DNA of 46,641 bases from Methanobrevibacter sp. (GTDB lineage Archaea > Methanobacteriota > Methanobacteria > Methanobacteriales > Methanobacteriaceae), in contig JAFUCN010000076.1 of the NCBI GenBank assembly GCA_017459665.1, forward strand, positions 1 to 46,641, written 5' to 3'. How positions within the stretch are numbered: the first letter of the stretch is position 1; each line of letters begins with the position of its first letter. The notes under the pieces are model-generated. The model ran no database searches, was not told the origin of the DNA, and saw nothing but the letters and a program-made list of their open reading frames with translations. The position numbers and the translations under genes were made by a program. Below are positions 14,669 through 18,238 of the stretch, one piece after another.

Positions 14669-14694
14669 GAAGATAACTAGTTTTAGTTATCTTC
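14669..14694 (-). terminator. Stem-loop over the nrdD stop codon
   Basis: GAAGATAACTA and TAGTTATCTTC form perfect eleven-base arms around four bases, and the nrdD TAA lies at the loop. On the minus strand ACACACCATTTTTC follows, so the T-run starts a few bases past the stem. It is probably the nrdD terminator. Confidence 0.6.
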
Positions 14695-17001
14695 GAATCT
14701 TCTTCTGTCAATTAATTCTTGACGTTTACCTGGGTTCCATCCTCCAGATGCAGATTTTGCACGTCCAACTTGTTGAACGTATCCGGTAATCCTATCATAC
14801 CATTCTACATCTTCTTTTTCACCGCAGGTAGGGCATGTATTATTTAACCCTTTCATTAAAGTCTTACATTTAAGACAGAAACTTAATGCTGAACTATAAG
14901 CCCAGAATCCGATATCGGATTTTCTTGCAATTTTATTTGTTAAACTCATTAATGAATCTGGGTCGGAGTATGATTCTCCCATGAATGCATGGAAGATGTG
15001 TCCACCAGGAGTTAAACTGTGATATTGTTCTTCGATTTTGATTTTTTCAATTAAGGAAGCGCCTGTGTCTACTGGTACGTGTGAGGAGTTGGTGTAGTAG
15101 TTAGCATTTCCATCACCTTGTACGATAGCTTGGTCTCCGAATTGTTTTTTGTCGAGAGTTGCAAATCTGTATGCAGTAGATTCAGCAGGAGTTTGAAGAA
15201 CAGACCATCTAAGTCCGGTTTCTTCCTGTAATTTTTTAGCTCTTTGGTTGACGTATTCAAGACATTTTACACCGAACTTGTTAGCGTCAGGGTTTTCGAT
15301 ACCTTCTCCGAATAAGGATAATAACATTTCGTTAAGTCCAACAAAACCGAAGGATAAGGTTGAGTTTTGGATTCTGTAGTAAGAATCTTCTGCTACTTGC
15401 TGTTTTAAGAATGGTAAAATGTGGAAATCATTTAAACATTTTAATCCTTGTTCTCTTCTGAGCATTAAGGTTTCAACAGCCAAGTCCATGTATTCGTCTA
15501 AGTATTCGAATACTTGGGATTCGTCTTTGGATTGGTATCCGATTCTTGGGAAGTTTAAAGTAACGTATGCTAAGTTACCAGTTCTTAAACAGTCTTGATC
15601 CCAGTCGCCAGTCCAGGTGTCTTGTAAACAAGTTCTGCAACCCATGTAGTTTGCCATTTGGTTTCTGTATTCTGGGAACATGTTTACAAAGTATGATGAA
15701 CCGTATTTTGCAGATAATTCGTGGACTAATCTGATGTCGTCTTCGTATTCACTGGTCATTGTCTCTGGCCTTAAGGTGTAAATAGTATTAGGGAATAAGT
15801 GAGGTTTTCCTTCGTTGTCACCAGCAAGTAAAGTTTCAGTGAATGCTCTTTGGATTAATCTGGTTTCTTCTTCGAAATCTGCGTAAGTTCCAACTACTTG
15901 ACCTTTTGGTCCGTAAGCAGTTTCTTCTTTAAGGAAGTCAGGAACTCCGAATTCTAATGCCATACTGGTAAATGGAACTTGAGACCCACGAGCAGCGTAA
16001 GCCATGTTTAAGTTATAAACAAGCATTTGAACAGATTGTTTGATTTCATCGTAGGTTCTGCCTCTTGCAAATGGTGCGACAAATACGTTCCAGAGAGACA
16101 TTCCTTGTCCTCCAGACATGTTTTGTTGTGCTGCAAGCATGATTTCACCAGTGTGGTTCATTAAGGTTTCCATGTGGTTTGGTGCACCTGCAATGGAGGT
16201 GTGGTCACCGGTACCGTCTACTTTAAGACCGTATTTGATGAAGGTCCTGATATCATGTTGCATACAGTTGAGAGGTCTTCCTGCGAAGAATTCCAAATCG
16301 TGAATGTGAATGTCACCAGACATGTGAGCGTCAGCTAAGTGTGCAGGCAGCATTTTTAAAAGTGCGTATTGTTTTAATGCTTCGTCTGCTACATGTTTGT
16401 GAATACTTTCAGGGTTATGGATCATGTTTGCGTTATCTCTGTTACCGTTTTCAATTAAAGAGGTAATGTTGTATACAGGGATACCTAAACGGGTGTAACG
16501 GCTTCTTAAGTCTTCTAAACCGTATTCAATTAATTTTGTGTTAACCATTTCCCTAATCATTGGAGCGGTTAAGTATTCAACATTTAATTTTTTGAGTTCT
16601 TTCCAGGTTTCAGTTGCGATTTCAAAAGCAGTTTCTTGGCTTGCACCTGTTTCTTCAATTAAGGTGTTAGCGATTTTGGATAAGTCGAATGCTTCGATTG
16701 TGTCTCTGGAAGTACGTACTTTTAACTGGGTACTTGCTAAGTATTTGTTAGCAATTTCCGGGTCGATGTCTTCTAAACATTCATGTACAATCTTTTTGAT
16801 TTCTTTGGTTTTGATTCCATCATATAATTGACCCACGACAGTAGCTACAATTTTGTCGGATTCAAAGAATGGAGTCTCAACCATTACTAAAGATTTTAAT
16901 AGTTTTTCGTAACTGAATCTTTCTGTTATTCCGTTATTTTTTTCTACATTGATTTTAACGGATTCATTTAAATTTTTTCCTAATTCTGAAGTTCTTTCCA
17001 T
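14683..17001 (-). CDS. nrdD: Anaerobic (class III) ribonucleoside-triphosphate reductase
   Basis: NrdD reduces ribonucleoside triphosphates to deoxy forms in strict anaerobes, using a glycyl radical installed by the radical-SAM activase NrdG. The 772-residue protein begins with an ATP-cone domain (about 15-105) that senses ATP/dATP. It continues as the ten-stranded barrel and ends with a zinc site (Cys709, Cys712, Cys723, Cys726) ahead of RITGY, where Gly740 is the likely radical residue. No intein or internal break is seen. No nrdG is present in the window, so the activase must be elsewhere. Two identical palindromic operators flank its TATA candidates. Confidence 0.95.
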   Translation of the reverse strand: MERTSELGKNLNESVKINVEKNNGITERFSYEKLLKSLVMVETPFFESDKIVATVVGQLYDGIKTKEIKKIVHECLEDIDPEIANKYLASTQLKVRTSRDTIEAFDLSKIANTLIEETGASQETAFEIATETWKELKKLNVEYLTAPMIREMVNTKLIEYGLEDLRSRYTRLGIPVYNITSLIENGNRDNANMIHNPESIHKHVADEALKQYALLKMLPAHLADAHMSGDIHIHDLEFFAGRPLNCMQHDIRTFIKYGLKVDGTGDHTSIAGAPNHMETLMNHTGEIMLAAQQNMSGGQGMSLWNVFVAPFARGRTYDEIKQSVQMLVYNLNMAYAARGSQVPFTSMALEFGVPDFLKEETAYGPKGQVVGTYADFEEETRLIQRAFTETLLAGDNEGKPHLFPNTIYTLRPETMTSEYEDDIRLVHELSAKYGSSYFVNMFPEYRNQMANYMGCRTCLQDTWTGDWDQDCLRTGNLAYVTLNFPRIGYQSKDESQVFEYLDEYMDLAVETLMLRREQGLKCLNDFHILPFLKQQVAEDSYYRIQNSTLSFGFVGLNEMLLSLFGEGIENPDANKFGVKCLEYVNQRAKKLQEETGLRWSVLQTPAESTAYRFATLDKKQFGDQAIVQGDGNANYYTNSSHVPVDTGASLIEKIKIEEQYHSLTPGGHIFHAFMGESYSDPDSLMSLTNKIARKSDIGFWAYSSALSFCLKCKTLMKGLNNTCPTCGEKEDVEWYDRITGYVQQVGRAKSASGGWNPGKRQELIDRRRFEDN

Positions 17002-17047: not shown

Positions 17048-17065
17048 TTAGAGTAAGTTCTCTAA
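17048..17065 (-). repeat. Small inverted repeat in the nrdD leader
   Basis: TTAGAG (17048-17053) and CTCTAA (17060-17065) are six-base arms with six bases between, 47 bases before the nrdD ATG and within the predicted 5' leader. It is weak by itself, but it adds to an unusually structured promoter. Confidence 0.3.
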
Positions 17066-17101
17066 CTGTTATACTATCTGTAAAGACTTGTATAATTAAT
17101 C

Positions 17102-17174
17102 GTTCGTATTACTACGAACATCTATATAATACATAGTTTTTTATTGTATATAAATTGTTCGTCTTTAAACGAAC
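17102..17174 (-). promoter_or_regulatory. nrdD promoter with two GTTCGT-N6-ACGAAC operators
   Basis: Two palindromes share exactly the same plan, GTTCGT, six bases, ACGAAC, at 17102-17119 and 17157-17174. Their centres are 55 bases apart, close to five helical turns. On the minus strand a TATA box (TTTATATA, 17154-17147) abuts the upstream operator, and another candidate (ATTATATAG, near 17133-17125) lies ahead of the downstream one. Operators on both sides of TATA are typical of repression, perhaps with looping. The motif does not look like the bacterial NrdR box. Confidence 0.6.
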
Positions 17175-17197: not shown

Positions 17198-18238
17198 TCA
17201 TCCTTCTAATCTTTTAATATCCAAAATCATCTGATCAAAGTCTGATATGAAATTTTTATCTTGAGTAACTCTGAATTTTTCATATCTTTCTAAAACATGC
17301 TTTTTTGCTTCCTCAGCAGATATTTTACCTTTCCCAACCAATATGGGCATTCTTCTGAGTTTGATATAATCATCCAGTAATTCTTTCCAGTCTTTCATAC
17401 TCATCGGTATTTTTTCTTCTGCACGGGATTCAGCTAGATTTAAAAAACCTTCAACTAAACTATTTAATCTAGACAATTCCTTTTGATTTAGGTAATTTTT
17501 TGAAATAACAACATCACTTTGCAATATTTTGCCATTTGGTGATTTACTCCAGCTTGTTAATCCCATATGTGTTTTTTCAACATCACTGCGAGAGTCTATA
17601 ATCTCTGCTGCAGTTTGGTTACTTATTGCATATATTAGTTTGTTTTGAACTGTTGCGAAGAATTTTTGAGTAATTTCAGCATCTTTGTCATAATCATAAC
17701 TTGTTGCGTAAATGTCTGTAATTTTCTGATTGAATCTTCTTTCAGACGCTCTTATTTCTTGTATTATTTCAAGTAATTCATCAAAATAGTCTTCGGTGAA
17801 TCTTCCGCCTTTTTTAAGAAGTTCCTTATTAACTACAAATCCTTTTATCATATATTGTTTTAATATTTGATTTGCCCAACGACGAAAGTGGGTTGCCTCT
17901 TTACTGTTAATTCTGTAGCCTATTGATATCATTGCATCAAGATTATACCATTTTTGAGGCCTTCCACCTTTTTTAGAGTTTATCAACTCTGAGTTGATAA
18001 ACTCTGATTGGTCTTCAAATAATTTTTTAGAGGATATGCTAACTTCATTTTCATTTAATTCTTCATTTTCAATGATTTTTCTAAAATGTTTGGATATATT
18101 TTGAGAACTTGTTCCAAAAATCTCTGAAACTAATTTTTGACTTGCCCAAAGTGTTTCATCAGCAATCAAAAATTCTCCTTCAACATCTTGTTGTCTACCT
18201 TTATATAATAATTTCTCAATAAGTTTGAATTCTTGCAT
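17198..18238 (-). CDS. RhuM-family protein (virulence RhuM-like), function unknown
   Basis: This 346-residue protein matches the RhuM family named after a Salmonella SPI-3 gene. The N-terminal part has EGEFLIADETLWASQKLVSEIFG and VSEIFGTSSQNISKHFRKI, a helix-turn-helix-like segment. The GGRPQKWYNLDAMISIGYRI and HFRRWANQILKQYM motifs are also found in phage Bro/KilA-like proteins. The biochemical role is not known; such genes are scattered among bacteria and archaea and often mobile. A GAGGGGC ribosome binding site precedes the ATG. It lies between polC and nrdD, where I would not expect it, consistent with insertion. A 31-base perfect palindrome lies inside the coding region. Confidence 0.85.
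   Translation of the reverse strand: MQEFKLIEKLLYKGRQQDVEGEFLIADETLWASQKLVSEIFGTSSQNISKHFRKIIENEELNENEVSISSKKLFEDQSEFINSELINSKKGGRPQKWYNLDAMISIGYRINSKEATHFRRWANQILKQYMIKGFVVNKELLKKGGRFTEDYFDELLEIIQEIRASERRFNQKITDIYATSYDYDKDAEITQKFFATVQNKLIYAISNQTAAEIIDSRSDVEKTHMGLTSWSKSPNGKILQSDVVISKNYLNQKELSRLNSLVEGFLNLAESRAEEKIPMSMKDWKELLDDYIKLRRMPILVGKGKISAEEAKKHVLERYEKFRVTQDKNFISDFDQMILDIKRLEG
17975..18005. repeat. 31-base perfect palindrome inside the RhuM gene
   Basis: AGAGTTTATCAACTC (17975-17989), one central T, then its exact reverse complement GAGTTGATAAACTCT (17991-18005). In the protein it gives the near-repeat EFINS-ELINS at about residues 78-87. Fifteen paired bases would form a strong hairpin in the mRNA or a cruciform in DNA. 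Confidence 0.8.

Follow-up and report, generated by a model that had tools for sequence, protein, structure and literature searches.

Twin conserved palindromes at two putative tandem nrdD promoters of Methanobrevibacter are predicted sites of the redox regulator MsvR

Described systems and the nrdD locus

MsvR, a thiol-redox transcription factor of methanogens with HTH and V4R parts, has been described as autoregulatory, and it in Methanothermobacter also controls fpaA (Isom et al., 2013; PMC3729527). The MsvR box reported upstream of msvR genes is a partial inverted repeat, TTCGTA-N4-TACGAA, with the relaxed form TTCG-N7-9-CGAA, and in Methanosarcina acetivorans PmsvR two such boxes (A and B) lie just upstream of TATA, box B being thought to block the BRE (PMC3729527). 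MthMsvR acts in vitro as a repressor of fpaA and of its own promoter by excluding the general factors. The motif alone is insufficient, as MaMsvR did not bind at rpoK (PMC3729527). The main text of that paper does not mention nrdD, and no description of nrdD as an MsvR target was found in the literature examined. Two palindromes upstream of a ribonucleotide reductase (RNR) gene and overlapping its promoter are likewise known from the NrdR boxes of bacterial RNR operons, which differ in sequence and have spacers of 14–17 or 24–27 bp, corresponding to whole helical turns (PMC12051234).

The window, i.e., the whole stretch of 46,641 nucleotides of Methanobrevibacter DNA that was analysed, was found to contain the following features around the nrdD promoter region.

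14683–17001, minus strand: nrdD, anaerobic (class III) ribonucleoside-triphosphate reductase, 772 aa (TIGR02487, 553 bits; PF13597, 558 bits; ATP-cone present)
17048–17065, minus strand: conserved leader hairpin TTAGAG-AACTTA-CTCTAA in the nrdD 5′ UTR, with a five-pair stem
17090–17099, minus strand: TATA-like element TTAATTATAC of the putative proximal nrdD promoter, from sequence and conservation
17102–17119, no strand: proximal palindrome GTTCGTATTACTACGAAC
17146–17154, minus strand: TATA-like element TTTATATAC of the putative distal nrdD promoter, from sequence and a conserved column block
17157–17174, no strand: distal palindrome GTTCGTCTTTAAACGAAC
17198–18238, minus strand: RhuM-family gene (PF13310, 321 bits), with polC/DP2 on one side and the nrdD operators on the other

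In these strict anaerobes dNTPs are supplied by NrdD, an oxygen-sensitive glycyl-radical enzyme whose control in archaea is poorly known. A second, divergent NrdD-like open frame of 673 aa was present in the same genome (G000:C52:19835-21655) and showed 31% identity to the NrdD of the window.

Both palindromes, GTTCGT-N6-ACGAAC, were exact and located within the 196-bp nrdD upstream spacer. As the preliminary description had reported, they share their half-sites and spacer length, and their starts are 55 bp apart. No other exact match occurs in the 1.82-Mb genome, and the reversed control gave none; from the base composition of the window, approximately 6e-6 matches per 196-bp spacer and 0.05 per genome would be expected by chance. 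A genome scan allowing two mismatches gave 53 matches compared to 170 with the reversed control, and is uninformative for that reason.

Read in the nrdD sense, the distal promoter has the order GACGAACAA-TTTATATAC and the proximal promoter TACGAACGA-TTAATTATAC, so that a TATA-like element follows each palindrome after a few bases; the predicted transcript starts are at about 17124 and 17067. It had been proposed that one palindrome touches a TATA box while the other sits at a likely start site. Instead, both palindromes directly precede TATA-like elements; the proximal one also coincides roughly with the expected start of the distal promoter, probably the basis of the earlier reading. Across the genus, both boxes were found directly before TATA-like elements with the 3′ arm in the BRE position. 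The gap between box and TATA was mostly constant (the commonest value in 24/30 distal and 29/43 proximal cases), whereas the box-to-box distance in the own genus (g1) was 55, 56, 57, 58, 59, 60, 78, or 79 bp from start to start. This combination fits two independent operators, each serving its own promoter, better than an NrdR-like phased pair. NrdR was rejected as the nrdD regulator, since the spacing of 55–60 or 78–79 bp is out of helical phase and no match to NrdR (TIGR00244) above the cut-off was found in the own genome (81% complete) or in 36 relatives of the genus; the earlier statement that the motif differs from the NrdR box was thus upheld.

Conservation of the boxes and relation to MsvR

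Exact copies of the palindrome were found in 26 of 37 genomes of the own genus, with a nearly empty reversed control, and the exact matches that were fetched lay upstream of nrdD, barring a few elsewhere. When only the arms (TTCG...CGAA) were fixed, the proximal box was present in 44/44 and the distal box in 31/44 aligned main-clade promoters; as these promoters were chosen for carrying the motif, selection accounts in part for the 100% at the box core. The scan of spacings 4–12 is free of such selection. Between the arms of the nrdD boxes in the aligned promoters N8 was always found, and the left GTTCG arm was as conserved as the right one. Besides, at least one box was present in 20/20 further nrdD upstream regions from the own genus. 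In all, nearly every readable nrdD promoter of the genus carried one or two TTCG-N8-CGAA boxes, and one genome (G012) showed the left half of a box only. The preliminary description had named conservation in sister species as a test of its regulatory claim; orthologous promoters in the genus carry the same boxes, and the claim was not refuted. As judged from this comparison, the sites are real, conserved operators of nrdD.

Within and beyond the genus, one nrdD box was found in M. smithii PS and two in M. ruminantium M1 (TGTTCGTAACAAGTCGAATG and CTTTCGTATGATATCGAACA), and most other genomes read from the M. ruminantium genus had one or two. A single box was present in 2/4 genomes of g20 and 2/2 of g17, and none at the nrdD promoters read from the termite/insect-gut genera (g19, g21, g22, g24, g25, and g27). 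Single or differently arranged ACGAAC half-sites were found at nrdD in Methanosphaera, g18, g29, and Methanothermobacter. In two Methanosphaera nrdD upstream regions (L290 and L293), two ACGAAC half-sites formed direct repeats approximately 19–20 bp apart.

Comparison with the published box showed the proximal nrdD site to be an exact MsvR box (TTCGTA-N4-TACGAA). The distal site fits the relaxed form (TTCG-N8-CGAA), its inner positions deviating with two mismatches from the strict form. A motif unlike anything known is thus not supported, and neither is the proposed regulator dedicated to nrdD; MsvR, whose published box is matched, also regulates its own gene and, in Methanothermobacter, fpaA. 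With the known redox factor MsvR as the most likely regulator, the proposal of a dedicated regulator was only partly right. In the M. thermautotrophicus PmsvR/fpaA region and M. acetivorans PmsvR the same dyad is placed at BRE/TATA with msvR in the same genome, whereas here the predicted target is nrdD, with two separate full dyads, each having its own TATA, and the sites are predicted. The kind of site is thus already known; new is nrdD as a conserved, predicted MsvR-box target.

The sole V4R protein of the genome is an MsvR of 256 aa with HTH and V4R parts, scoring 306.6 bits against the NCBIfam MsvR equivalog NF053755 (cut-off 220). Its sequence is 43–44% identical to that of Methanothermobacter MsvR and retains both the V4R cysteines and the HTH segment GKSKSTVS; it shows the CX2CX3P form, which Isom et al. 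attributed to other MsvR homologues (PMC3729527). V4R proteins were present in all g1 genomes searched, and no solved structure matched MsvR at E 0.01 or below.

Half-sites identical to those of the nrdD boxes were also found at msvR itself. In many species of the own genus, TACGAAC directly precedes the TATA element of the msvR promoter and a conserved ACGAACaGTTCGTa follows downstream, an arrangement that lacks the strict TTCG-N7-9-CGAA. The Methanothermobacter-like msvR promoter reads GTTCGTATGTCATCGAATG...TACGAAC-TAATATATA, and its core, TTCGTA-N4-ATCGAA, equals the core of the proximal M. ruminantium nrdD box. In g17 and for L066, which have a nrdD box, a half-site was present at msvR as well (L173 and L182). 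In parallel to their box-less nrdD, the termite-gut genera had readable msvR promoters without half-sites.

In M. ruminantium M1, msvR directly follows fprA2, which is 65% identical to Methanothermobacter fpaA, and of 14 GTTCGTA half-sites found in the examined 300 kb, four lie in the fprA2 and msvR promoters; no such half-site was found at fprA1. RNA-seq of M1 under lauric acid showed nrdD (log2 1.47), fprA2 (3.58), fprA1 (1.37), and rbr2 (1.27) all to be up (PMC5816558). Lauric acid does not constitute a defined redox stress and fprA1 rose without having a half-site, so the co-induction of nrdD and fprA2 is supportive only.

Predicted control of nrdD and alternative readings

Our main reading is that the twin palindromes are MsvR sites at two tandem nrdD promoters, through which MsvR would repress nrdD under thiol-redox control, as extrapolated from the studied MsvR proteins (probability about 0.72). 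The CGAA arm shares the register of CCGAAA before TTTATATA at cdc48, and the ACGAAC arm partly overlaps the BRE; with the arm in this register, a bound dimer would cover the BRE. Reduced MsvR would thus sit as a dimer on each box, just upstream of TATA, and exclude TFB/TBP, and on the proximal box it may also stop transcripts arriving from the distal promoter. On oxidation of its V4R cysteines, MsvR would be altered or released and nrdD would rise, together with msvR and, in M. ruminantium, with fprA2 (F420H2 oxidase). Several points weigh against this reading: the different half-site arrangement at msvR in the own genus, the insufficiency of the motif at rpoK, the partial coincidence of the ACGAAC arm with the BRE, the box-less nrdD of termite-gut genera that retain MsvR, and the rise of fprA1 without a half-site.

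The presence of MsvR boxes at nrdD points to a link between redox stress and DNA synthesis in these archaea. More tentatively, we propose that in gut Methanobrevibacter, which are without NrdR, MsvR may have become the main regulator of anaerobic RNR. Thiol redox would then set DNA precursor synthesis via two promoters that are each gated separately, and the regulon would be small (msvR, nrdD, M. ruminantium fprA2, and perhaps a distal cdc48 promoter). A known regulator and exact candidate nrdD sites in M. smithii, M. ruminantium, and rumen relatives make the link between redox and DNA synthesis testable in cultured strains.

Archaeal activators can also use a site just upstream of BRE/TATA. 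The position of the boxes would therefore also suit MsvR as an activator that recruits TBP/TFB, or as a factor with a dual role, and each box holds its distance to its own TATA; the overlap of the box arm with the BRE register speaks against this, as do the in vitro repression by MthMsvR of its own promoter and fpaA and the proposed blocking of the BRE by box B in M. acetivorans (PMC3729527), and we regard activation or a dual role as unlikely.

Next in order of likelihood, and likewise improbable, the boxes could be operators of another, uncharacterised regulator, e.g., one sensing dNTPs, with a half-site resembling that of MsvR. Full palindromes in the genus are nearly confined to nrdD while msvR is arranged otherwise, and the termite-gut genera retain MsvR with the same HTH segment although their nrdD is box-less, both of which would suit such a regulator. 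However, the match to the published box is exact, the same half-sites occur at the msvR and fprA2 promoters, and in the termite-gut genera the half-sites are missing in parallel at nrdD and msvR, which favors MsvR.

It is very unlikely that the conserved arms represent an extended BRE/TATA core promoter without any regulator. The CGAA arm does share the BRE register before TATA in Methanobrevibacter core promoters, as at cdc48, and in nrdD promoters of the Methanovirga type a lone ACGAAC arm stands before TATA. On the other hand, the left GTTCG arm lies outside the BRE, is equally conserved and is always eight bases from the right arm, features that do not belong to a core promoter, and hardly any dyads occur in the genome outside nrdD. 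The conserved left arm in particular disfavors this reading.

Least credible of all is a role of the palindromes as RNA hairpins or terminators. Stem pairing is possible, and transcripts from the distal promoter would include the proximal copy, but the five outer pairs keep one sequence and do not covary, unlike those of the leader hairpin, the inner pairs of the distal site are mostly broken (pair 6 complementary in 12/31, pair 7 in 2/31), and no relevant Rfam match was found for the palindromes.

The leader hairpin itself showed covariation in 29 sequences, with 10 cells changed on both sides and 0/500 shuffles as high. Its stem pairs are GAGAG/CTCTC, and GATAG/CTATC in a second group; it was absent from species with a short nrdD leader.

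Other sites and neighboring genes

A search for GTTCG-N8-CGAAC in the 37 g1 genomes gave 66 sites compared to 19 for the reversed control. The only recurrent site seen outside nrdD was located approximately 310 bp upstream of cdc48. In six genomes (L152, L154, L155, L159, L160, and L162) the full palindrome TTCG-N8-CGAA was found just after the upstream gene, followed by a TATA-like AAATATTAAA, and in other species the right arm was kept while the left arm was degenerate. The cdc48 gene of the own genome was cut by the contig end. These sites are suggestive of cdc48 as a possible second target.

The RhuM-family gene was rejected as a target of the boxes, as its stop codon precedes the distal box by 24 bp and the boxes are also present in relatives lacking this gene there; in the relatives examined, polC directly precedes the nrdD operators with no RhuM gene between. 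A palindrome approximately 190 bp upstream of another RhuM gene (G031) is similar, but was a single case and was taken as chance. In many relatives (L022–L080), a conserved stretch, CAAATGCTCTnGGACA, was found after the polC stop codon and before the distal box.
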